From the NCBI RefSeq assembly GCF_018327705.1, contig NZ_BNEM01000002.1, positions 3,286,001-3,350,000 of the forward strand: a DNA stretch of 64,000 bases. The letters are read 5' to 3'. A program made the translations under genes and the position numbers. The stretch is from Catellatospora sp. TT07R-123. GTDB lineage: Bacteria > Actinomycetota > Actinomycetes > Mycobacteriales > Micromonosporaceae. Of this stretch, positions 25,456 through 36,668 are shown piece by piece (the first letter of the stretch is position 1; the number at the start of each line of letters is the position of its first letter). Below the pieces are notes generated by a model, which searched no databases, was not told the DNA's origin, and saw only the letters and a list, made by a program, of their open reading frames with translations.

Positions 25456-26376
25456 CTACTTCCGGTAGACGGCGACATAGTCGATCTTCATGGCGTGGCC
25501 GCCCTCGGTGGCGGCGTTGGGACCGCCGCCGAAGGCGTCGGGGAAGCCGCCGCCGATGGCCAGGTCGAGGATGATGAAGAACGGGTGGTCGACCGCGTTG
25601 GACCAGGTCGCGGCGGGCACCTGGTTGGCGTTCACGGTGAAGTAGTTGACGCCGTCGCGATACCAGCGGATCTGCTCCGGACTGACCGACCGGTCGATCT
25701 GGACCGCGTACGTGTGGTAGCCCGTCTGGCAGCCGTTGCACGCGCGCTCGCCGCTGCCGATGCCGGTGGACTCGTTGCACGGGCCGCCCGGGTTGGTGCC
25801 GCAGTGCAGCGTGCCGAAGACGGAGCTGCGGCCGTTGACGTCCTCCATGATGTCGACCTCGCCGGAGGTCGGCCACGGCACGCCGTTGCGCAGCGGGGCG
25901 CCGAGCATCCAGAATGCCGGCCAGTATCCGGCGCCGTTGGCCGTGGTCACGTCCGGCTGCCAGATCGCGGCCTTGACCAGCAGGATCCCGTTCGGCCCGG
26001 CGCCGAAGGTCGCCTTCGTCTCGATCCGGCCGGAGGTCCAGCCGTCGCGCGGGGCGGTGCCCGCGTGCTTCGCCTTGAGCACGAGGTGGCCGTTGCCGTC
26101 GCGGTAGACGTTCTGCGTGCTGCTGGTCATGGTCTCGATCTCGCCGGTGCCGAAGCTGCTGCCCGGACCGGTGTCGTAGATCCACTCACCGGTGTCGACG
26201 CCGGTGTTGGCCGGGCCGTTGAAATCGGTGCTCCAGATCTCGGTGAAGCCCGCGGGCGGCGCCGGGACCGCCGCACCGGCCGCGCTGCTCGGCACCACGG
26301 CCCCCACGGTCAGCAGGCTGACGACGGCCGTAGCCCTCGCCAGCCTTCGGAGCAGTGGCGATGCCTGCACTGACAT
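25456..26376 (-). CDS. Secreted GH16 endo-beta-1,3-glucanase
   Basis: 306 residues. The signal peptide (about 1-35) ends in an Ala-rich region. The beta-jelly-roll domain holds the GH16 catalytic motif GEVDIMEDVNG, with Glu173 as nucleophile, Asp175, and Glu178 as acid/base; the inserted Met of EIDIME is the laminarinase form. Other family segments are GYWPAFWMLG, TYAVQIDRSVSPEQIRWY and the C-terminal MKIDYVAVYRK. ATG 26376 has GGGAGA upstream. It is first in an operon with GH64. The secreted pair should degrade fungal or plant beta-1,3-glucan. Confidence 0.92.
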   Translation of the reverse strand: MSVQASPLLRRLARATAVVSLLTVGAVVPSSAAGAAVPAPPAGFTEIWSTDFNGPANTGVDTGEWIYDTGPGSSFGTGEIETMTSSTQNVYRDGNGHLVLKAKHAGTAPRDGWTSGRIETKATFGAGPNGILLVKAAIWQPDVTTANGAGYWPAFWMLGAPLRNGVPWPTSGEVDIMEDVNGRSSVFGTLHCGTNPGGPCNESTGIGSGERACNGCQTGYHTYAVQIDRSVSPEQIRWYRDGVNYFTVNANQVPAATWSNAVDHPFFIILDLAIGGGFPDAFGGGPNAATEGGHAMKIDYVAVYRK

Positions 26377-26448
26377 GATCGTCTCCCACATCCTGAATGG
26401 CCGGCTCCGCCCGCCGTCGCCGCACAGCAGGGCCGAAATTCCATCCAC

Positions 26449-26727: not shown

Positions 26728-27168
26728 CTAGGCGACGGAGCCGCGCGGCACGACCCAGCGGGTCCGAGCGCCGACGGCCGCGCAGATACGCTCGTAGTCG
26801 CTGTCGTAGTGCAGGACCACGGCCTCGTGCGCGGCGGCGGTCGCGGCGACGAACAGGTCCACGACCGAGGTGCGGTGCTGTCCCTCGGCTGCCAGCTTCG
26901 CCTGCGCGGCCAGGGCCTTCTCCTCGACGAGATCGTCGCCGTTCAGCATGATCGTGGCGTCGAGCAGCGCGCGCAGCTGCCGGTACTCCGCACCGTTGCG
27001 CGCGCTGTAGCAGACCTCGGCGGTCAGCAGCGCACAGGTGCCGAGCTCCCCCGACCTGGTGAGGTCGGTGATCGCCTCGGCCACGGACGGCAGCGTGCGG
27101 CGGGCCCACACGGACGTGTCGACCAGATAGATCGGAAACGGACAGAAGCGGCCGCAGGCCGCGATCAT
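26728..27168 (-). CDS. Orphan PIN-domain ribonuclease (VapC-like toxin)
   Basis: 146 residues of the PIN fold with all acidic residues visible: Asp17 (LVDTSVW), Glu51 (TAEVCY), Asp104 (VVDLFVAATA) and Asp122/124 (YDSDYERI). VapC proteins cleave tRNA or rRNA. A VapB antitoxin gene should sit just upstream on the minus strand, but only family-2 repeat DNA is there. The first codons (MIAACGR) are themselves repeat sequence (27148-27168), so the natural start, normally a Met right before YLVDTS, is gone. The gene may be a truncated remnant or be translated from the repeat-supplied ATG. A GTG in DTSVW is an unlikely alternative start. Confidence 0.75.
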   Translation of the reverse strand: MIAACGRFCPFPIYLVDTSVWARRTLPSVAEAITDLTRSGELGTCALLTAEVCYSARNGAEYRQLRALLDATIMLNGDDLVEEKALAAQAKLAAEGQHRTSVVDLFVAATAAAHEAVVLHYDSDYERICAAVGARTRWVVPRGSVA

Positions 27169-27260: not shown

Positions 27261-27653
27261 TCAGGCGGGCGCGGTGGCCCGTTCCGCCGCGGAGCGTTCG
27301 ACGCAGAACTCGTTGCCCTCCGGGTCGGCCAGGACGACCCAGCCGGTGCCGTCAGGGTTGCGGAAGTCGCCGAGCATGGCCGCGCCGACGCCGAGCAGCC
27401 GCTCGACCTCCTCGTCGCGGGTGCGGTCGTCGGGCTGGACGTCGAGGTGGAGCCGGTTCTTCACCGCCTTGCCCTCGGGCACGACGATGAACAGCAGGTC
27501 GGGGCTGTCGTCCTCGGTGGACATCAGCATCGCCGCCGGTTCGTCCGGGCGGTCGTCGGGGTGGTGCGGGTAGCCGGTGACGTCGCTCCAGAAGCTCGCC
27601 AGTCGGTACGGGTCGACGCAGTCCACGGTGATGTGCCGGATGCGGGATGTCAT
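27261..27653 (-). CDS. VOC (glyoxalase/bleomycin-resistance) family protein
   Basis: 130 residues forming two beta-alpha-beta-beta-beta modules: RIRHITVDCVDPYRLASFW with VTGYPHHPD, and RLHLDVQPDD with WVVLADPEGNEFCVERS. Metal-ligand type residues His (RHITVD), His (NRLHLD) and Glu (NEFCVE) are in the expected places. ATG 27653 overlaps the sensor-kinase stop by four bases, so it is the last gene of the two-component operon. Its substrate is unknown. Confidence 0.9.
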   Translation of the reverse strand: MTSRIRHITVDCVDPYRLASFWSDVTGYPHHPDDRPDEPAAMLMSTEDDSPDLLFIVVPEGKAVKNRLHLDVQPDDRTRDEEVERLLGVGAAMLGDFRNPDGTGWVVLADPEGNEFCVERSAAERATAPA

Positions 27654-28813
27654 TGCGCTGATGCTAGGGGCAGCGCGATGGTGACCTCCATCCCGCCGCC
27701 CTTCAGCGCCACCGCGCCGACGGTGCCGCCGTGCGCCTGGCACACGGCCCGCACGATGGACAGCCCCAGGCCGGACCCTCGGGCCCCGGTGCGCTCGCGG
27801 CCGCCCCGCCGGAACGGCTCGAACAGCCCGGCCACGTCGGCCTGGTCGACCTCGAACCCGGTGTTGCCGACCATGAGCCGGGCGTATTCGCCGTCGACGC
27901 TGCTGCTGACCCAGATCCGGCCGCCGAGGTGGTTGTAGCGGACGGCGTTCTCGATCAGGTTGCCGGCGAGGCGGTCGAGCAGGCTCGGATCGCCGATGAC
28001 CGGGGCCGGGCCCAGGTCGGTGCTGACGTTGATCTTGATGCGCTGCACCTCGCGGTCCATCGCCGAAAGCGCTCCGCGCACACCCATGCCCAGATCGAGC
28101 GGTTCGGCGCGCAGGCCGGTGCGGCCCTCGCTGCGGGCCAGCATGAGCAGCGCGTCGACCAGCGCGTTGGCGCGTTCGGACGCGTCGCGGACCACGTTGG
28201 CCATCCGCTTGAGCTCGGCGGTGTCCACCCCGGGGTCGGACATCGTCACGTCGATCTCGGTGCGCATCACCGCCAGCGGCGTACGCAGCTCGTGCGACGC
28301 GTTGGCGACGAACCGCTGCTGCGCCGTGAACGCGGCCCCGAGCCGGTCCAGCATCTCGTCGAACGTGTCGGCGAGCTCGGCCACCTCGTCGTCGGCACCG
28401 GCGTAGTTGATGCGCTGGTCCATGGTCTCGCCGCCGAGTTTCTGCGCGGTCGCGGTGACCCGGTGCAGCGGGCGCAGCGCGCGGCCGACCACGGCGTACG
28501 CCCCGAGCACGCCGACCACGGTGATGGCCAGGATCGCCGCGGCCCCCTTGGCGAACAGCTCGATCTGCGCCGTGGCCAGCAGCGAGTCCTGCCACTGCTG
28601 CGCCTCCATCACCTGGCCGTCGGCCAGGGTGACCGTGGTGCCCGGGGGCAGCGAGTCGGCCGGGTTGAGCAGGTCGGCCATGACCAGCCAGGTCATCAGC
28701 AGCAGCAGCGCGCCCGCACCGGCCAGCAGCACCGCGTTGAGCAGGGTCAGCCGCAGCCGCAGCGTGGGGCGCAGCCGTCGCCGGGGCCGCACCCGCTGGG
28801 CACGCTGCCGCAT
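27650..28813 (-). CDS. Two-component sensor histidine kinase
   Basis: 387 residues. Two membrane helices (about 23-45 and 85-108) flank a short extracellular loop of about 40 residues. A HAMP region (RALRPLHRVTATAQKLGGE) leads to the H box FVANASHELRTPLAVMRTE with the phosphorylated His, then N box GNLIENAVRYN, G1 region and G2 box GARGSGLGLSIV. It is an OmpR-class kinase. ATG 28813 overlaps the regulator stop (TGATG). The short sensor loop suggests sensing through the membrane or a partner; the tandem propeller proteins encoded upstream are candidates. Confidence 0.95.
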   Translation of the reverse strand: MRQRAQRVRPRRRLRPTLRLRLTLLNAVLLAGAGALLLLMTWLVMADLLNPADSLPPGTTVTLADGQVMEAQQWQDSLLATAQIELFAKGAAAILAITVVGVLGAYAVVGRALRPLHRVTATAQKLGGETMDQRINYAGADDEVAELADTFDEMLDRLGAAFTAQQRFVANASHELRTPLAVMRTEIDVTMSDPGVDTAELKRMANVVRDASERANALVDALLMLARSEGRTGLRAEPLDLGMGVRGALSAMDREVQRIKINVSTDLGPAPVIGDPSLLDRLAGNLIENAVRYNHLGGRIWVSSSVDGEYARLMVGNTGFEVDQADVAGLFEPFRRGGRERTGARGSGLGLSIVRAVCQAHGGTVGAVALKGGGMEVTIALPLASAQ

Positions 28814-29493
28814 CACGCCTCCGGCTCCTGCCCCGCCAGCGGGATCCGGTAGCCGGCCCCGACCAGCGTCTCGATCAGCGCCGGGGTGCCGATCTTCATC
28901 CGCAGCGTGCGCATGGTCACCCGCACGATGGTGGTGAACGGGTCGGTGTTGGCGTCCCAGACCCGCTCCAGCAGCTCCTCGGTGGAGACGACCCCGCCGC
29001 GTGCCCGCAGCAGCTCCTCCAGCACGCCGAACTCCTTGTTGGTCAGGTCGATCAGCGTCCCGGCCCGGGTCACGGTGCGCTTGGCGGGGTCGAGCTCCAG
29101 GTCGGCGGCGCGCAGCACCGGCGGGGTGACCGGCGTCGCCCGGCGGCCCAGCGCGTGCACCCGCGCCACCAGCTCGTCGAAGGCGAACGGTTTGGGCAGG
29201 TAGTCGTCGGCGCCCAGGCGCAGGCCCTCGACCCGCTCCGCGACGCTGCCGCTGGCGGTCAGCATCAGCACCCGGGTCAGCTGCCCCGAGCCGACGAGCG
29301 CGGCGCAGAGCTGGTCGCCGTGCATGCCCGGCAGGTCCCGGTCCAGCACCACCACGTCGTACCGGGTGACGAAGGCCATCTCGTGGCCGGTGCTGCCGTC
29401 GTACGCCACGTCGACGGCCAGGCCCTGCCGCCGCAGCCCGCGCGCGATCGCGTCGGCCAGATGCCGCTCGTCCTCCACCACCAGCACCCGCAC
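28813..29493 (-). CDS. OmpR-type response regulator
   Basis: 226 residues. The receiver domain has the acidic pair in VVEDERHLAD, phosphoacceptor Asp51 (DVVVLDRDLPG), a Thr in MLTASGS and Lys101 (DYLPKPFAF). The C-terminal winged helix has LTNKEFGVLEELLRARGGVV and TIVRVTMRTLRMKIG, ending at the wing GAGYRIPL. GTG 29493 has GGGGAG 8-9 nt upstream; GTG 29502 is too close to it. It is coupled to the kinase gene. Its targets may include the neighbouring propeller genes, but no operator repeat was recognised. Confidence 0.95.
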   Translation of the reverse strand: MRVLVVEDERHLADAIARGLRRQGLAVDVAYDGSTGHEMAFVTRYDVVVLDRDLPGMHGDQLCAALVGSGQLTRVLMLTASGSVAERVEGLRLGADDYLPKPFAFDELVARVHALGRRATPVTPPVLRAADLELDPAKRTVTRAGTLIDLTNKEFGVLEELLRARGGVVSTEELLERVWDANTDPFTTIVRVTMRTLRMKIGTPALIETLVGAGYRIPLAGQEPEA

Positions 29494-29585
29494 GCCCAGC
29501 ACTCCCCTTTCGACGTCCCCGTCGCCAACGAAGATAGAGGGCCGCCGCCAGGACGTGAAATCCTGCCACGTTTCGGTGGGACGGA

Positions 29586-30878
29586 TCAGGGCAGGTAGCG
29601 GTACACGTCGAGGCCGCCGAGCAGGGCACGGCAGGCCACGGTGCCCTGGGTCAGCCAGCACCGGTCCAGGGTCGGGCCGCCCGTGCCGAGCACCCGCACC
29701 GGGGCGGGGTGCGCCGGGTCGAAGGTGCCGAACCAGGTGCGCCGGGCCTGCTGGTTCGACAGCACCAGCAGGCTGCCGTCGTATCCGACGACCTGCCAGT
29801 CGCGCAGGCGCATCAGCACCTCGCCGGTGCGCGAGTCGCGCAGCAGGCTGTAGCCGGGGGTGTCGTGCAGGCCCGCGTTGAGCACCCCGGGCGCGGCCGG
29901 GAAGAAGCCGTCCATGCGGCCGTACCAGCGGACCTCGCCGGTGGCGGAGTCGAGCAGCCAGAGCAGGTCGCCGTCGTTGACGCAGACCGACGGGCGGCAG
30001 TCGGAGACGTACACCGAGCTGCGGGGGGCGGGGTTGGGCACGTTCCAGCCCGGTTCCAGGCCGGGCAGGCTCAGCGAGGTGATCCGGCGCACGTCGTCGT
30101 ACTCGTACGACACCAGCAGCCGCCCGTCGGCCTGCTGCACCGCCCCGGTGCCCGCGGGCAGCTCCCGCTCCGCCTGGACCGTCCCGTCGACGCCGATCAG
30201 CCGCACCCGGCGTGGCGGGACCGTGTCGACCAGCACGAACCCGGCGATCCGGCCGCCCACCTCGTACAGGCTCCAGTCCTGGCCGGTGGTGTAGGAGACC
30301 CGCCACAGCTCACGGCCGGTGCGGATGTCGCGGCTGACGAACCAGTCGGCTTTCGGATCGACGCCCACCATCAGCGTCACCGGCTGGCCGCCGTCGACCC
30401 GGGTGCCCACCGCGATCGACCGGTCCTGCCAGTAGAGCGCCCCGGTCCGCCGATCCACCGCGTACGTCGACCACGCCTGCTCGGCCGACGAACCGTCGAT
30501 CACCGAGACCAGCAGCACCCCGTCGGCGGCCCAGGCGGCGTACACCTCGGGCGAGCCGCCCGTCAGCGGCACCCGCCAGCGCTGGCTGCCGTCGCCGGTG
30601 TCCACGGCGACCAGGTCGCGGGTGCCGTCGTCGCGGCGGCGGGCCAGCAGCAGCAGGTCGTCGACGAGCGCGACCGAGCCCACGACGGCGTCCTGAACGT
30701 GCACCGGCCCCCGCAGCGGGCCGGGCGGCACCCGTTCGGCGCTCACCCCGGCGACCAGCAGAGCCAGGCAGACGGCCAGGCCGGTCCAGCGGCGCTGCCA
30801 CCGCGACAGGCGCGGCGCGCCCGGCGGGTCGTCGTCGGCGGGCGCGTGCTCCTCGCCGAGGTCGATGAGAGCGGTCAT
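29586..30878 (-). CDS. Membrane-anchored PQQ-like beta-propeller protein 1
   Basis: 430 residues. A cytoplasmic tail starting TALIDLGEEHAP leads to one membrane helix (about 40-58, LAVCLALLVAGVSA) and an extracytoplasmic propeller of PQQ-like repeats (DTGDGSQRWRVPL, DRRTGALYWQD, DIRTGRELWRVSY, DSATGEVRWYGRM). The two Cys pairs shared by all five paralogues are present: DCRPSVC and the C-terminal RCW-x6-AC, followed by YRYLP. ATG 30878 has AGGAGGT. It is the most divergent and most downstream of the array and is 219 nt from copy 2. The blades are probably structural or sensory, since no PQQ ligand residues were identified. Confidence 0.85.
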   Translation of the reverse strand: MTALIDLGEEHAPADDDPPGAPRLSRWQRRWTGLAVCLALLVAGVSAERVPPGPLRGPVHVQDAVVGSVALVDDLLLLARRRDDGTRDLVAVDTGDGSQRWRVPLTGGSPEVYAAWAADGVLLVSVIDGSSAEQAWSTYAVDRRTGALYWQDRSIAVGTRVDGGQPVTLMVGVDPKADWFVSRDIRTGRELWRVSYTTGQDWSLYEVGGRIAGFVLVDTVPPRRVRLIGVDGTVQAERELPAGTGAVQQADGRLLVSYEYDDVRRITSLSLPGLEPGWNVPNPAPRSSVYVSDCRPSVCVNDGDLLWLLDSATGEVRWYGRMDGFFPAAPGVLNAGLHDTPGYSLLRDSRTGEVLMRLRDWQVVGYDGSLLVLSNQQARRTWFGTFDPAHPAPVRVLGTGGPTLDRCWLTQGTVACRALLGGLDVYRYLP

Positions 30879-31097
30879 CGCGACCTCCTGCCTGCCGGCG
30901 GCAGCCGGCCAACGCCACGGCGCGATCCGGGCCACCAGCGGCGGTGCGCGACGCCGGCGGACCGGACAGGTACTGAACACCGTCGCACACCGGACGGCGG
31001 TTCGGCCAGTGCCGGAATTGCGCGGTCGGCGACGCTGCCGTCCGATCTGGACCCGGCGACGCTACCAGCACAGGTGCGACGGCGGCGGCAGGCGGCG

Positions 31098-32468
31098 TCA
31101 GCGGCCGCCCGGCGTGCCGATCCGCCAGAGTGCCAGGTGGTTGCCACCGAAGACACAGGCCAGCCTGGATGCGCGGTAGAAGCAGCGCTGAGCCCGGCGC
31201 GGCAGCACGCCCAGCACCCGCACGCCGCCCTCGACGATCCTGGCCACCTGCACGGTCTGGCCGACGTCGCGCAGGAGCACGTAGTCCCCGCTGCCGTCCT
31301 CGGCGCCGAGCACCAGCCAGCCGTCGAGGTCCACCAGCGGGCGGCCCGTGTCCGGGTCCGCCAGGTACACGGCGTCGACCCCGCGCATGTTGGAGGTGCC
31401 CGAGACGTCCAGCACGACGAACCCGTCCCCGGTCGGCAGCAGCGCCTGGTCCGGGCCGGTGCGCCAGCGGTCGGCGCCCGTCGCCGGGTCCGTCACGAGC
31501 ATCCGGAACTCGCCCTCGGTCCCGTCCGACTGGCTGACGCACCGGTACCGCCCGCACGGAACCGCGTACGAACCCTGGGGCAGCGCCTTGAGTGTGACCA
31601 GGTCGTACTCGAACTGCTGGATGGTGACGTCGGGCGCGGCCGGTTCGCGGACCGGCGGCATCGACCCCAGCTGGACCGAGTCCTGGAACGAGTACAGGAA
31701 CACCGGCCGCCCCGGCGGGAACCCGGCCTGCCCCCGGCGCACCACGTGCCCGTCGTGCACGTCGTGGACCGCGACCTCGCCCTGGGCCGTGGCGGTGAGG
31801 ACCACGCCCCGCTCGGAGTTGACCGCCGCGAACGGCGTCCCCCGCAGCGTCCACAGCGTCCGGCCGGTGCGCAGGTCGTAGCCGGTCACCTCGTCGGCCC
31901 GGCGGTCCGGCGCGCCCGGCGCCGGGGTGGCGGGGTCGAACCAGTCGCCGTAGACGGCGACCTGCACACCCACGCCGTCGACCGGATACACCTGCCGCGG
32001 GGCCGACCACAGCGGCGCCCCGGTCTCCCGGTCGAACACGCTGGTCACCCCCGTGTCGCTCACCGCCAGCACCACCCCGGCCGCCGCCGTCGCGAAGCCC
32101 TGGCCGGGCACGGGCGTGGCGTAGGGCGTGCTCCAGCGCAGCGCGCCGTCGGCGGACGCGTACGCCGTCAGGGACGTCGTGCCCAGCACCAGCAGCAGAT
32201 CGCCCGAGTGCTGCACGGCCTCCGAGCCGGTGTACTGCGACACCCCCGGCAGCTCGAAAGCGGCCAGCTCGGCGATGTCGCGCACCGGCGCCGCCGAGGC
32301 GCCCAGCACTGCCGCGAGCGCCAGCGCCACCGCATACCCGGCGCGTCTGCGCAGGTCCCGCAGCGGCGGCAGCGGCGGGCTGCCCGGGTCCTCGGCCGGC
32401 AGCGCCCAGTCGTCGCTCAGGTCGATCATCTCGGTCCTGTCGCCCAGGCTGGTCGGCATCGTCCGCAT
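31098..32468 (-). CDS. Membrane-anchored PQQ-like beta-propeller protein 2
   Basis: 456 residues. Cytoplasmic motif MIDLSDDW, the Pro-rich EDPGSPPLPPLRDLRR, one membrane helix (about 44-62), then propeller repeats (YASADGALRWSTPY, FDRETGAPLWSAP, YDLRTGRTLWTLRGTPFA, DPATGADRWRTG). The mid-protein Cys pair is PCGRYRC and the C-terminal pair is RCFYRASRLAC followed by LWRI. The start ATG overlaps the stop of copy 3 (TGATG). It is closest to copy 3, with which it shares the Pro-rich segment exactly, so a recent duplication or gene conversion is likely. Confidence 0.87.
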   Translation of the reverse strand: MRTMPTSLGDRTEMIDLSDDWALPAEDPGSPPLPPLRDLRRRAGYAVALALAAVLGASAAPVRDIAELAAFELPGVSQYTGSEAVQHSGDLLLVLGTTSLTAYASADGALRWSTPYATPVPGQGFATAAAGVVLAVSDTGVTSVFDRETGAPLWSAPRQVYPVDGVGVQVAVYGDWFDPATPAPGAPDRRADEVTGYDLRTGRTLWTLRGTPFAAVNSERGVVLTATAQGEVAVHDVHDGHVVRRGQAGFPPGRPVFLYSFQDSVQLGSMPPVREPAAPDVTIQQFEYDLVTLKALPQGSYAVPCGRYRCVSQSDGTEGEFRMLVTDPATGADRWRTGPDQALLPTGDGFVVLDVSGTSNMRGVDAVYLADPDTGRPLVDLDGWLVLGAEDGSGDYVLLRDVGQTVQVARIVEGGVRVLGVLPRRAQRCFYRASRLACVFGGNHLALWRIGTPGGR

Positions 32469-33820
32469 CACTCTCCGACTCGCCAGAACGCGAGATGGTT
32501 GCCGCCGTAGACGCAGCTCAGGCTACCCGGCACGTAGAAGCACCGCTGGATCTCGTGCCGCAGCGAGCCCAGCACCCGGACCTCGCCGTCCACGATCCGG
32601 GCGACCTGGGCCGTCCTGCCGACCTGGCGCAGCAGCACGTAGTCCTGTGTCGCGCGGCCGGTCCCGTCCGCCATCGGGACCAGGATCAGCCAGCCGGTCA
32701 GGTCCAGCAGCGTGCGACCGGTGGCCGGGTCGGCCAGCCGGACCGCGGCGGCGCCGAAGTCGCCGATCGGCGACTGGTTGGGGTCGATGGTGACGAACCC
32801 GTCCGCGACCGCCACCAGCCCCAGGTTCTGCTCGACCTGCCAGCGGGTCGCGCCCGTGGCCGGGTCCGTGACCGAGACCTGGAAGTCCCCGCCGTCCTTG
32901 CCGAATCTGTTGACGCACCGGAAGGCCCCGCACGGGTAGGGATAGCTGTTGTGCACGGCGGCGTCCACCGGCCGGGCACGCAGCGTCGTCAGGTCGTACT
33001 CGGCGTCGACGGGTTCCTTTCCCGGCACGACCGCGTTCAGCTGGAGCAGGTCCCCGTACGTGTTGACGTACACCGGCTGCCCCGCGGGCCACGTCACCTC
33101 GCCCCGGCGCAGCAGCCGCCCGTCGCCTACGTCGTAGAACGCGACCGCGCCGTCGTTCGTGATCGTCAGCACCTGCCGCTGCTCGGCGTTGACGGTGGCG
33201 AACGGGGTGCCCCGCAGCTCCCACAGCACCCGGCCGGTGCGCAGCTCGTAGCCCCGGACCAGGTCGGACTCCCGTTTCGGCTGGTCCGCCGGGGCGATGC
33301 TCGGGTCGTACCCGGAGGTGTAGTCGACGATCTGGACGCCCACGTCGCCGAGGGCGTACACGCTGGCCTCCGTCGTCCAGAGCTGCGCGCCGGTCTGCTC
33401 GTCGAACACCGTGGTGGCCGCCGCCTGGTTTCCGGACAGGGCCACCACCACCCCGTTCCCGGCCGTCGCATAGCCCTGGCTGGGATCGGAGCTCGGGAAG
33501 GGCACGCGCCAGCGCAGGGTGCCGTCGGTCATCCGGTACGCGGTCAGGGTCTGGCCGCCGCGCGACAGCAGCAGGTCGCCCACGACCTGCGCGGGAGAGA
33601 TGTCGCTGCCCACGTTCGCCACTCCCGCGAGCTCGAACGTCGCCAGCTCGGCGACCTGCCGCACCGGTGCCGCCGAGGCGGCCGGCGCGGCCGCCAGCAG
33701 CAGGGCCAGCGCGAACCCGGCGGGCCTGCGCAGCTCCCGCAGCGGCGGCAGCGGCGGGCTGCCCGGGTCCTCGGGCGCCTGTGCCCAGTCCTCGCGCAGG
33801 TCGATCGTCTCGGTCGGCAT
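32468..33820 (-). CDS. Membrane-anchored PQQ-like beta-propeller protein 3
   Basis: 450 residues. TETIDLREDW, then EDPGSPPLPPLRELRR, one membrane helix (FALALLLAAAPAAS) and propeller repeats (YRMTDGTLRWRVPF, FDEQTGAQLWTTE, YELRTGRVLWELRGTPFA, DPATGATRWQVE). Cys pairs PCGAFRC and RCFYVPGSLSC, ending FWRVGE. Start ATG 33820 (GAGGCGG just upstream) or GTG 33832. The DNA around the start is almost the same as at copy 2. It is translationally coupled to copy 2. Confidence 0.87.
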   Translation of the reverse strand: MPTETIDLREDWAQAPEDPGSPPLPPLRELRRPAGFALALLLAAAPAASAAPVRQVAELATFELAGVANVGSDISPAQVVGDLLLSRGGQTLTAYRMTDGTLRWRVPFPSSDPSQGYATAGNGVVVALSGNQAAATTVFDEQTGAQLWTTEASVYALGDVGVQIVDYTSGYDPSIAPADQPKRESDLVRGYELRTGRVLWELRGTPFATVNAEQRQVLTITNDGAVAFYDVGDGRLLRRGEVTWPAGQPVYVNTYGDLLQLNAVVPGKEPVDAEYDLTTLRARPVDAAVHNSYPYPCGAFRCVNRFGKDGGDFQVSVTDPATGATRWQVEQNLGLVAVADGFVTIDPNQSPIGDFGAAAVRLADPATGRTLLDLTGWLILVPMADGTGRATQDYVLLRQVGRTAQVARIVDGEVRVLGSLRHEIQRCFYVPGSLSCVYGGNHLAFWRVGE

Positions 33821-33884
33821 CGTCCGCCTCACTGTCCGAGGTGCCGGAGCTCCGCCGGCCCGGTCTGTCCAACATGGTCTTCCA

Positions 33885-35204
33885 TCAGTCCTCGACCCGC
33901 CAGATGCCCAGGCGGTCGCGGTCGTACAGGCAGCTGAGCCGGCCGGGCCGGTAGGCGCACCACCGCACGCGGTACGGCAGCTCGCCGAGCACCGTGACGG
34001 CGCCGCCGTCGATCCGCGCCACCTGGGTGGCGTGGCCGACCTCCCGCAGCAGCAGGACCCGGCCGTCCTGATCGTATGACGACGACAGCACGTCCCAGCC
34101 GCGCAGATCCTGCATCCTGCGGCCGCTGGCCTGGTCCACGAGGTCCCTGGCGGCGGAGCCGAGCCGACCGGGCAGGGAACGCAGGTCGACGGTGACGAAC
34201 CCGCCGCCGACGGGCACCGGGTTCACGTTCGGGTCGAACCGGTAGCTCACCGCGGCGGTGGCCGGGTCCTGGATGCTGATCCGGAAGCCGCCGCCCTCCG
34301 CCTCCGTCACGCACTGCACCTGCCCGCACCGGTAGACGTTCGGCATGGTCACGGCTGCGGGACTGCTGACGGGGCCGAGCGGCCGCAGCGTGGCCGGGTC
34401 GTAGCCGAGCTGCCTGACCATGCCGTCGGCGCCGACCGACGACAGCTCGATCCGATCGGGGTCCGCCGCGACGTCCGCCGGTGTCCCGGGCGGGAACGCG
34501 AGCTCACCCGTACGCACCGCCCGCCCGTCCCGGACCGCGTGGACCGTGAAGACACCCGAGGGGTCGACGGACCACACCTCGCCCCGCACGGAGTCGAGCG
34601 CGGCGAACGGCGCCCCGGGCACCCGCCACAGCAGCCTGCCGGTGCGCAGGTCGTGGCCGGTCGCCTCCTCCGCGGCGTTCGGTTCGGCGCCGCTGACAGC
34701 CCTGCCGTCACCATCGACGACCAGCGGGTCGCTGCTCACGACGACCCCCAGGCCGCCGACGACGGCGGGCGGGTGCGGCGCCTGCCACAGCAGCGCGCCC
34801 GTCGCCCGGTCCCGTACGTCGGTCGCGGTGCCGACCTCCGACACCAGCAGCACGCCGTCGCGGACGTCGAACTGCGCCGCGCCGGGCACCGAGGAGCGGT
34901 ACGGCACCTGCCAGAGCCGGGTGCCGTCGCCGGGCGAGAACGCCGCCAGCGTGTCGGCACCCTGCGCGACCAGCAGATCGTCCAGGACGACCGCCCTCGA
35001 CTCGGACCGCGTCACGCCGGAGATCCGGTAGTCGCCCAGGGCGGCCACCCGGCGCTGCGGCAGTGCCGCCGCGGCCGTCGTGCCGGTCAGCACCAGCGCC
35101 AGTGCCAGCAGGACCGGCCTGCGGTAGCGCAGCAGCGGCGTGCCCTCGGGCTCGGGCCGCGGCGCCGACCAGTGCTCGCCGAGCTCGATGACGTCGACGT
35201 TCAC
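33885..35204 (-). CDS. Membrane-anchored PQQ-like beta-propeller protein 4
   Basis: 439 residues. It starts VNVDVIELGEHWSAP and has one membrane helix (about 31-50, VLLALALVLTGTTAAAA). Repeats include FSPGDGTRLWQVPY, RDRATGALLWQAP and DLRTGRLLWRVPGAPFA. Cys pairs RCGQVQC and WCAYRPGRLSC, ending IWRVED. GTG 35204 overlaps the stop codon of copy 5 by four bases (GTGA), with GGAGG upstream. An upstream start near 35495 would be out-of-frame shadow of copy 5. Confidence 0.87.
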   Translation of the reverse strand: MNVDVIELGEHWSAPRPEPEGTPLLRYRRPVLLALALVLTGTTAAAALPQRRVAALGDYRISGVTRSESRAVVLDDLLVAQGADTLAAFSPGDGTRLWQVPYRSSVPGAAQFDVRDGVLLVSEVGTATDVRDRATGALLWQAPHPPAVVGGLGVVVSSDPLVVDGDGRAVSGAEPNAAEEATGHDLRTGRLLWRVPGAPFAALDSVRGEVWSVDPSGVFTVHAVRDGRAVRTGELAFPPGTPADVAADPDRIELSSVGADGMVRQLGYDPATLRPLGPVSSPAAVTMPNVYRCGQVQCVTEAEGGGFRISIQDPATAAVSYRFDPNVNPVPVGGGFVTVDLRSLPGRLGSAARDLVDQASGRRMQDLRGWDVLSSSYDQDGRVLLLREVGHATQVARIDGGAVTVLGELPYRVRWCAYRPGRLSCLYDRDRLGIWRVED

Positions 35205-36535
35205 CGGGGACCCGCCTCCACTCGCCAGATGCCGAACCGGTCGTCGTTGGTGCTGCAGGCCAGCGCCTGCGGGGTGGAGACGCACAGCTTCAGCTCGTAC
35301 GGGATCTCGCCCACCGGCCGCAGCTCCCCGCCGCGCCGCAGCTGCCCCAGGTACGACGAGTCGGTGGCCCGGCCCGGCCGGACCAGGTAGGAGACGAAGC
35401 CGGTGCCGTCCGATACGGCGTACCAGTCCTGGTAGGCCGGACGGACGCCGCCGGTGGCCGCGTCGAACGTGCCCTCGACGCGGGGGCCGGTCCACAGCGA
35501 GGAGAAGCCCACCGCCAGCGGGCCGGCGGCGCTGGGCATGAACCCCCGGTCATTGGCCGCGAGCGTGACGATGGGCCGGCCGGTGACCGCGTCGAGCATC
35601 CAGTAGCGGGCACCCCCCGGCCGCGTGTTCACCGCGCAGGTGATGCCGCCGCCGCAGTCGGTCAGGCTGGTCCAGCGGGGACCGGCCGCCGAGGGCTGGA
35701 GCGTGGCCCGGGAGAACCACAGTTCGAGGCGGGGCGGCGGCGGGTCGGCGAGGCCGTCGTCCTGGCTGACCACCCCGACGACGTCGTCGCCGTAGGTCAG
35801 GCTGACCGGCCGCCCCGGGGGCACGCTGATCCGGGCCGACCGCCGGACCGTGCCGTCGGCCAGGTCGTGCTCGACGAGGTCGCCCTCGGGCGACAGCCGC
35901 CACAGCGTCGCGGCCCCGGCGTCGACGGCGTCCGCCACCGACGGGGGCAGGCGCCAGAGCAGGCGGTAGTCGCGCGCGTCGTGCACCTCCAGCTCCTGGG
36001 TGCCGTCGGCGTGCCAGCGGTAGCTCAGCAGCCACCGCCCCGCGACCGGCTGCGGAGCCCCGACGGCGAACCAGCGGGGCTTGCCGGTGTGCGCGTCGTA
36101 CGCGGTGGTCTCGATGGGCGGCTGCTGGTCCCGGTCGGCCGGGACGCCGCTGGCGCGGCTGACGACCACCAGGTCGGCGATGCTGAAGAAGCCGTAGATC
36201 TCCCGGCCGACCGGAGCCTGCCAGCGCATCGCGCCGGTGGCCAAGTCCCAGCCGGTGATCACCTCGCGGCTCTGCACCGCCACGGTGTCCGACCCGACCA
36301 GCGTGATGGCCGAGACGACCGCCTGGCGCAGCGCGAGTTGGTGCAGCCCCGCGCCCTGCGGCCGGGCCGCGGCCGCGGCCCCGGTCAGCACCGCCAGCAC
36401 CGCGGCGCCGAGCGCGGTCCGCCGGCGCCAGCCCAGGCCGGGCTTGGCGGGCAGGATCACCTCGTCCTCGTCGCTCCAGCCGTCGCCGAGGTCGATCACG
36501 CCGGTCGCCCGGCCGCCCGCACCCTGCCCCTGCAT
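35201..36535 (-). CDS. Membrane-anchored PQQ-like beta-propeller protein 5
   Basis: 444 residues, first gene of the array. GVIDLGDGWSDEDE, one membrane helix (about 41-60, ALGAAVLAVLTGAAAAA), then repeats WDLATGAMRWQAPVG, YDAHTGKPRWFAVG and FDAATGGVRPAY. Cys pairs DCGGGITC and LCVSTPQALAC, ending IWRVEAGPR. ATG at 36535. It is preceded by the hairpin that ends dxs transcription, so the array likely has its own promoter in 36536-36607, though none was recognised. Confidence 0.86.
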   Translation of the reverse strand: MQGQGAGGRATGVIDLGDGWSDEDEVILPAKPGLGWRRRTALGAAVLAVLTGAAAAARPQGAGLHQLALRQAVVSAITLVGSDTVAVQSREVITGWDLATGAMRWQAPVGREIYGFFSIADLVVVSRASGVPADRDQQPPIETTAYDAHTGKPRWFAVGAPQPVAGRWLLSYRWHADGTQELEVHDARDYRLLWRLPPSVADAVDAGAATLWRLSPEGDLVEHDLADGTVRRSARISVPPGRPVSLTYGDDVVGVVSQDDGLADPPPPRLELWFSRATLQPSAAGPRWTSLTDCGGGITCAVNTRPGGARYWMLDAVTGRPIVTLAANDRGFMPSAAGPLAVGFSSLWTGPRVEGTFDAATGGVRPAYQDWYAVSDGTGFVSYLVRPGRATDSSYLGQLRRGGELRPVGEIPYELKLCVSTPQALACSTNDDRFGIWRVEAGPR

Positions 36536-36607
36536 CTGCCCCGCACCGCCTCACGATGTGTTCGCGTGAGGGAACGCCTCGGCCCGCGCGATCGGTTGCC
36601 GCGCCCT

Positions 36608-36649
36608 GAACGCCGCAGGGCCGCCCGGTCGGGCGGCCCTGCGGCGTTC
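36608..36649. terminator. Terminator after dxs
   Basis: Perfect 19-bp arms (GAACGCCGCAGGGCCGCCC) with a GGTC loop, 20 nt past the dxs stop codon. No U tract, as usual in this GC-rich DNA. Confidence 0.8.
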
Positions 36650-36668
36650 ATCCTGGGTCTTGCCTGGG

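Follow-up and report, generated by a model that had tools for sequence, protein, structure and literature searches.

A tandem array of predicted nine-bladed propeller proteins keeps a place beside a two-component gene pair in the Micromonosporaceae

The 64,000-nucleotide stretch of Catellatospora sp. TT07R-123 analysed here (the window) carries, between dxs and the genes of an OmpR-type response regulator (RR) and a histidine kinase (HK), five tandem genes of the reverse strand, named A to E in the order of transcription (36535 to 29586), each encoding a protein of 430 to 457 aa in which a short tail and a single hydrophobic helix precede a repeat region of the PQQ_2/BamB type. This is a real and uncharacterised array that extends across the Micromonosporaceae, with its fold, tail, cysteines and position well supported by computation. 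As the leading but tentative interpretation, its proteins may act as an accessory, LpqB-like sensor or scaffold in envelope-stress or wall-homeostasis signalling. No description of such a propeller array was found in the literature searched, whose coverage excluded most subscription journals.

An earlier reading made from the sequence alone (the sequence-only reading) had proposed a profile search with the five copies. Of 200 Micromonosporaceae genomes sampled, 144 were matched by the resulting profile, so the propellers extend well beyond the window's own genome, in which only these five members were detected at the profile level used. No full-length member was found outside the Micromonosporaceae in samples of the order (121 genomes) and the class (148 genomes), where matches in 5 and 6 genomes, respectively, were partial, none spanning more than about 150 of the 448 positions; one scan for viral relatives found none.

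Conserved features were counted in 225 distinct full-length proteins from 121 loci, which comprised the window, 40 loci picked for containing matches and 80 taken beside dxs. For most of them, identity to copy C is only 19-28%. In 220 of the 225 proteins a script detected the tail motif I-[DE]-L, the next residue being G, D or S in 217, and of three script misses read by eye two were VIDLG and one was unclear. The motif precedes the helix by a median of 21 residues and was 97% identical in close pairs, compared to 62-70% elsewhere in the protein. Among 12,019 stop-to-stop open reading frames (ORFs) of the loci collected, I-[DE]-L-G ahead of a hydrophobic helix was present in 172 ORFs of the family and in no others, and rearranged control motifs preceded a helix in 0 to 9 ORFs. 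Cysteines 301, 306, 431 and 440 (numbering of copy C), located beside repeat tryptophans, were kept in 224, 224, 224 and 223 of the 225 proteins, with exactly four cysteines in the examined region in 154. The sequence-only reading had described a stricter common plan, consisting of I-[DE]-L-x3-[WH], a mid-protein C-x4/5-C and a C-terminal C-x8-C-x9-[WY]R, and all five tandem copies do follow it. Family-wide, however, only I-[DE]-L and the four cysteines stand, whereas x3-[WH] and the strict C-terminal spacing are local traits (W at the former place in 34 of 222 tails, the latter in 87 of the 225 relatives).

The position of the array was analysed in dxs loci of 103 genomes, in 94 of which the RR gene was found. 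One to six same-strand propeller genes were located between dxs and RR in 80 of these 94 loci (one copy in 23 loci, two in 21, three in 23, four in 8, five in 3 and six in 2). Considering only the genomes obtained by the dxs search, 67 of 81 had propellers, with 35 genera represented and propellers in 26, although genomes in this search (90 of 119 with a dxs match) were picked to spread genera and not at random, so that the share is not a census. In a second set of named genomes, some of them overlapping with the first, propellers were encoded upstream of the RR/HK pair in 71 of the 74 loci that had at least 3 kb upstream among the best 80 of 319 RR matches. The last copy lay at most 300 bp from RR in 59 of 80 loci of the dxs set and in 28 of 71 named loci. 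In some genera dxs is 7-9 kb away and a propeller gene still adjoins RR; therefore, the lasting link is that with the regulator pair. The two-component genes, which the sequence-only reading had noted on the same strand, are thus conserved neighbours.

Regarding the fold, four of the five copies reached the gathering cut-off of 27.6 bits of PF13360 (PQQ_2), with scores of 34.6 for E, 46.5 for D, 49.8 for C and 27.6 for B, A being below it with 24.1, and 77 of 79 aligned members matched at E <= 0.001. Identity with BamB itself was rejected, as the equivalog model TIGR03300 gave 8.5 to 29.3 bits compared to a cut-off of 285.2. AlphaFold models of copies C and E (pLDDT 87.6 and 90.6) contained 35 strands plus one of two residues and 36 strands, respectively; with blades assigned from strand order and not from coordinates, a nine-bladed propeller is predicted. 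BamB has eight blades of the same repeat type, whereas the array proteins have nine predicted blades, a tail with a helix and four fixed cysteines, and structure matching ranked nine-bladed eIF2A, eIF3b and the designed Cake9 above BamB for both models. The best structural matches are protein-interaction propellers; eIF2A, eIF3b and WRAP73 among them have nine blades according to the title of 4nox and to PMC4125824 and PMC12506977, but they are eukaryotic cytoplasmic proteins of the WD40 type with 6-10% sequence identity to the array proteins. An actinobacterial extracytoplasmic propeller, Rv3035/MMAR_1667, was also matched at a lower rank, and the available portion of its literature describes no tandem array with a kinase pair. 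In both models the helix was 21-23 residues long and each cysteine pair lay on adjacent strands of a hairpin, a placement that disulphide staples would have. The models thus predict nine blades and a cysteine arrangement in which disulphides may form.

In the proposed mechanism, each copy would be an extracytoplasmic protein with a cytoplasmic tail bearing I-[DE]-L-[GDS], one membrane helix and a nine-bladed propeller of the PQQ/BamB type with two cysteine pairs. The propeller would most likely serve to bind proteins on the outer side of the membrane, and through their common tail the various copies may all contact a single cytoplasmic partner. A role as an accessory component of envelope signalling appears the most likely because of the stable place beside the RR/HK pair and the presence of an MtrA-type box in Actinoplanes. 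The closest known parallel is LpqB of the MtrAB-LpqB system, which also has a propeller and is an extracytoplasmic accessory protein encoded in actinobacteria beside an OmpR-type regulator/kinase pair, a placement similar to that of the array proteins. In contrast to LpqB, the latter lack a lipobox, are encoded upstream and not downstream of the pair, come in several tandem copies, carry a conserved cytoplasmic tail and accompany a different kinase pair. Regarding the lipobox, copies A to D have no cysteine before residue 293, and E has C37 within the helix, preceded by LAV. LpqB modulates MtrB, according to PMC5487470.

The MtrA-type box was found in the Actinoplanes group, so labelled by its nearness to Actinoplanes sp. 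DH11 (L246; dxs 94.6%, RR 96.8%). The direct repeat GTTA-N7-GTTA was present just before the first propeller gene in 14 of 14 arrays of this group, as the sole such site in each 20-kb locus, and was absent upstream of all other propeller genes assayed (43 other first, 23 single, 28 dispersed, 54 last, 56 middle and 4 other copies), as well as upstream of RR (94), dxs (94) and HK (93). With a looser pattern, the only one of 71 named first-copy upstream regions (from the best 80 of 319 RR matches) to carry the box was that of Actinoplanes. In this genus, binding of MtrA ahead of a propeller gene (orf8222 of A. deccanensis) has been reported (PMC10714768), and orf8222 likely belongs to the family of the array.

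The neighbouring pair was compared to CutRS, to which it is related, the RR being 62-63% identical to CutR of Streptomyces-like genomes (the Streptomyces label of this group, g107, being deduced from the published cysteine spacing of CutS). According to PMC12802291, CutS of Streptomyces senses through two outer cysteines, and ten Streptomyces-like kinases had two cysteines in the outer loop, 18-21 residues apart. In contrast, the outer loop of the HK has no cysteine in the window, and any cysteine between the helix starts was found in only one of 90 loci, inside a helix (3 loci were skipped). When a CutR-like query (L179, judged to be Streptomyces) was searched, it matched two regulators of its own genome better (70% and 68%) than the RR of the array (62%). 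CutRS orthology was therefore rejected, as the reciprocal search fails and the loop cysteines are missing. The helix-loop-helix length of the HK was common to 78 of 90 loci, as would be expected if the loop meets a constant partner. The outer loop and the propellers were both present in 77 loci, propellers only in 1, loop only in 7 and neither in 5 (Fisher p 1e-4); this association was not used as proof, since 3 loci were skipped (by eye one with and two without propellers, all of them without the loop), relatedness was not corrected for and counts by genus fall to 25, 1, 6 and 3. In several genera the kinase beside RR has lost the outer loop, and most of these also lack propellers (L153-L157, L142, L149, L152, L103). 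A more elaborate, three-component version of the proposal is considered doubtful: the outer domains, nine-bladed, fast-evolving and each stapled by two cysteine pairs, would be interchangeable inputs to one conserved RR/HK pair via the shared tail, and the outer cysteines would report extracellular redox state or misfolding. CutS fulfils such a duty through its own cysteines, which the array kinase does not have.

Several observations weigh against the role as accessory sensor or scaffold. The RR/HK pair was found without propellers in 14 of 94 loci, and the distance from the last copy to RR exceeded 300 bp in 21 of 80 loci of the dxs set and in 43 of 71 named loci, with a gene of the opposite strand between them in several loci inspected; a single operon with the two-component genes, for which the sequence-only reading had proposed co-transcription tests, is thus not the rule. 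Other loci, of which 10 were inspected, have one or a few propeller genes among unrelated ones. That reading had taken scattered single genes with unrelated neighbours and an unconserved signature as grounds for doubting a dedicated system; scattered copies do exist, but position and signature are conserved, and the objection as a whole fails. The MtrA-type box is limited to Actinoplanes, the strict pattern not being found elsewhere, and the array of the window has no box. Finally, the helix could be a signal peptide.

Next in likelihood, and to be regarded as possible, is that the propellers are purely a scaffold for envelope assembly that holds envelope enzymes or secretion factors, as BamB does in the BAM complex and Rv3035 does with FecB and AftB, the RR/HK pair being a mere stable neighbour or their controller. 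However, no enzyme partner is conserved at the locus, the membrane proteins that some genera encode between dxs and the array are absent from the window, and a scaffold alone leaves the tail motif unexplained. The membrane proteins, up to three of about 650 residues (L068:3345-9190, L117:10595-16557), had no Pfam or NCBIfam match over the cut-off.

The signal-peptide alternative concerns topology and is unlikely. In it, the N-terminus would be an extended signal peptide comparable to YSIRK of Gram-positive cocci, with I-[DE]-L as an export or septum-targeting signal, and the helix would be cleaved to leave the propellers released or wall-bound. In fact, 218 of 222 helices were followed by an A-x-A-like stretch with a nearby proline, by a loose pattern, and the uncharged run had a median of 21 residues. 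Nevertheless, such a pattern is easily met in Ala-rich sequence and the 21-23 residues of the modelled helix are long for the core of a signal peptide. The membrane anchoring claimed by the sequence-only reading is accordingly retained as probable, but not as certain.

Less likely still is a diversifying surface recognition system, such as a phage receptor, a toxin target or a kin-recognition device, in which turnover and rapid change would themselves be the purpose and for which the main argument is the evolutionary rate. dN/dS values were calculated by the Nei-Gojobori method, which is rough at high GC. Over all genera, the median was 0.56 for 89 close propeller pairs compared to 0.16 for dxs, 0.09 for RR and 0.17 for HK (all pairs), and in two genera it was 0.51 for propellers (26 pairs), 0.20 for other genes (243) and 0.17 for secreted-like genes (18). 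Only 12 of 261 non-propeller pairs reached the propeller median, corresponding by reading to antisense ORFs in nine cases, to an untagged propeller in one and to the C39 peptidase in two. Thus, the propellers evolve about three times faster in dN/dS than neighbouring genes. When the window was compared to C. tritici (L036), dxs, an APC transporter, RR and HK were 96-98% identical (dN/dS 0.07-0.13), a TRAM methyltransferase 85% (0.34), E 90% (0.25) and A 71% (0.52), whereas B, C and D were 49-50% identical with values of 0.89, 1.13 and 0.98, the best partner being the same for C and D. E is conserved among near relatives only, the median identity of genus-wide last copies being 51%. Despite this, hypervariability of one face was rejected, because change is diffuse, with 24-37% mismatch per class of strands and loops and no single face or loop class affected. 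Moreover, dN/dS values for whole genes are mostly under 1, estimates of synonymous change are difficult at such GC, and none of the five proteins had a match among the anti-phage families of PADLOC at E <= 0.001. These data are read as a fold, cysteines and tail that are kept under loose surface constraint. A weak match of the RR to SduA (E 1.9e-05, residues 5-62) was taken as chance. As for a PQQ-dependent dehydrogenase or other redox enzyme, the PQQ-type repeats are present, but this is very improbable given that the dehydrogenase model PF01011 reached at best 19.9 bits in the five copies (cut-off 26.7) and that conservation in the ectodomain is highest at the Trp, Gly, Asp and Cys residues of repeat and hairpins, no conserved cluster of charged residues being apparent.

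The features of the window are listed in Table 1. Copies B and C are separated by 52 bp, D and E by 219 bp, and E lies 83 bp from RR; the two overlapping gene pairs reported by the sequence-only reading were confirmed as A/B and C/D. The hairpin between dxs and the array (-54.2 kcal/mol, z -6.6) is probably a transcription boundary ahead of the array; the terminator scan detected no T-run terminator. Pairwise identity among the five copies ranges from 23 to 55%, with D and C as the closest pair, and these two do have in common the segment EDPGSPPLPPLR and a 199-nt block with 83% DNA identity, as had been noticed. Nevertheless, the recent expansion deduced from this sharing is not supported, given the identity of only 55% between C and D and of 49-50% between them and their best matches in a close relative, whose dxs and RR are 96% and 98% identical.

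Table 1. Features of the propeller locus in the window.
Feature	Position	Strand	Remarks
Propeller copy A	35201..36535	-	444 aa; first of the array, adjoins dxs
Propeller copy B	33885..35204	-	439 aa; 4-bp overlap with A
Propeller copy C	32468..33832	-	454 aa; modelled, strand count predicts nine blades
Propeller copy D	31098..32471	-	457 aa; 4-bp overlap with C
Propeller copy E	29586..30878	-	430 aa; last of the array, adjoins the regulator gene; modelled, strand count predicts nine blades
OmpR-type response regulator (RR)	28813..29502	-	229 aa; conserved neighbour
Histidine kinase (HK)	27650..28813	-	387 aa; two membrane segments predicted, with a short, cysteine-free outer loop
Perfect 20-bp hairpin after dxs	36607..36650	-	without T run

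Other genes were detected around the locus. In the window, a secreted family-16 glycoside-hydrolase-like gene (Pfam PF00722) is located downstream at 25456-26448 (-), and a small gene at 26728-27168 (-) appears by eye to encode a PIN-domain-like protein, a homologue of which is found at the same position in three further loci (cluster c25). Many Catellatospora and Micromonospora-like loci have a secreted Peptidase_C39_2 gene of the opposite strand between array and regulator (L044:6025-7311; cluster c9 in 10 loci), and this gene is also fast-evolving (dN/dS up to 0.65). A divergent, undetected propeller was considered for the gaps of about 1.4 kb before RR and rejected, since the loci inspected have a gene of the opposite strand there instead, a Peptidase_C39_2 in the one tested.

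The literature found, as far as it was accessible, describes nine blades in eukaryotic and designed proteins; if a structure confirms the prediction, a nine-bladed bacterial propeller of the PQQ type would extend the variety known for a common fold. Point mutations could be aimed at the invariant tail motif and the four cysteines, and the MtrA-type box lends itself to a promoter test. If the role as accessory sensor or scaffold is true, envelope signalling in these actinomycetes would gain a new component, a receptor-like array with a fixed place on the chromosome in genera such as Micromonospora, Actinoplanes and Catellatospora.
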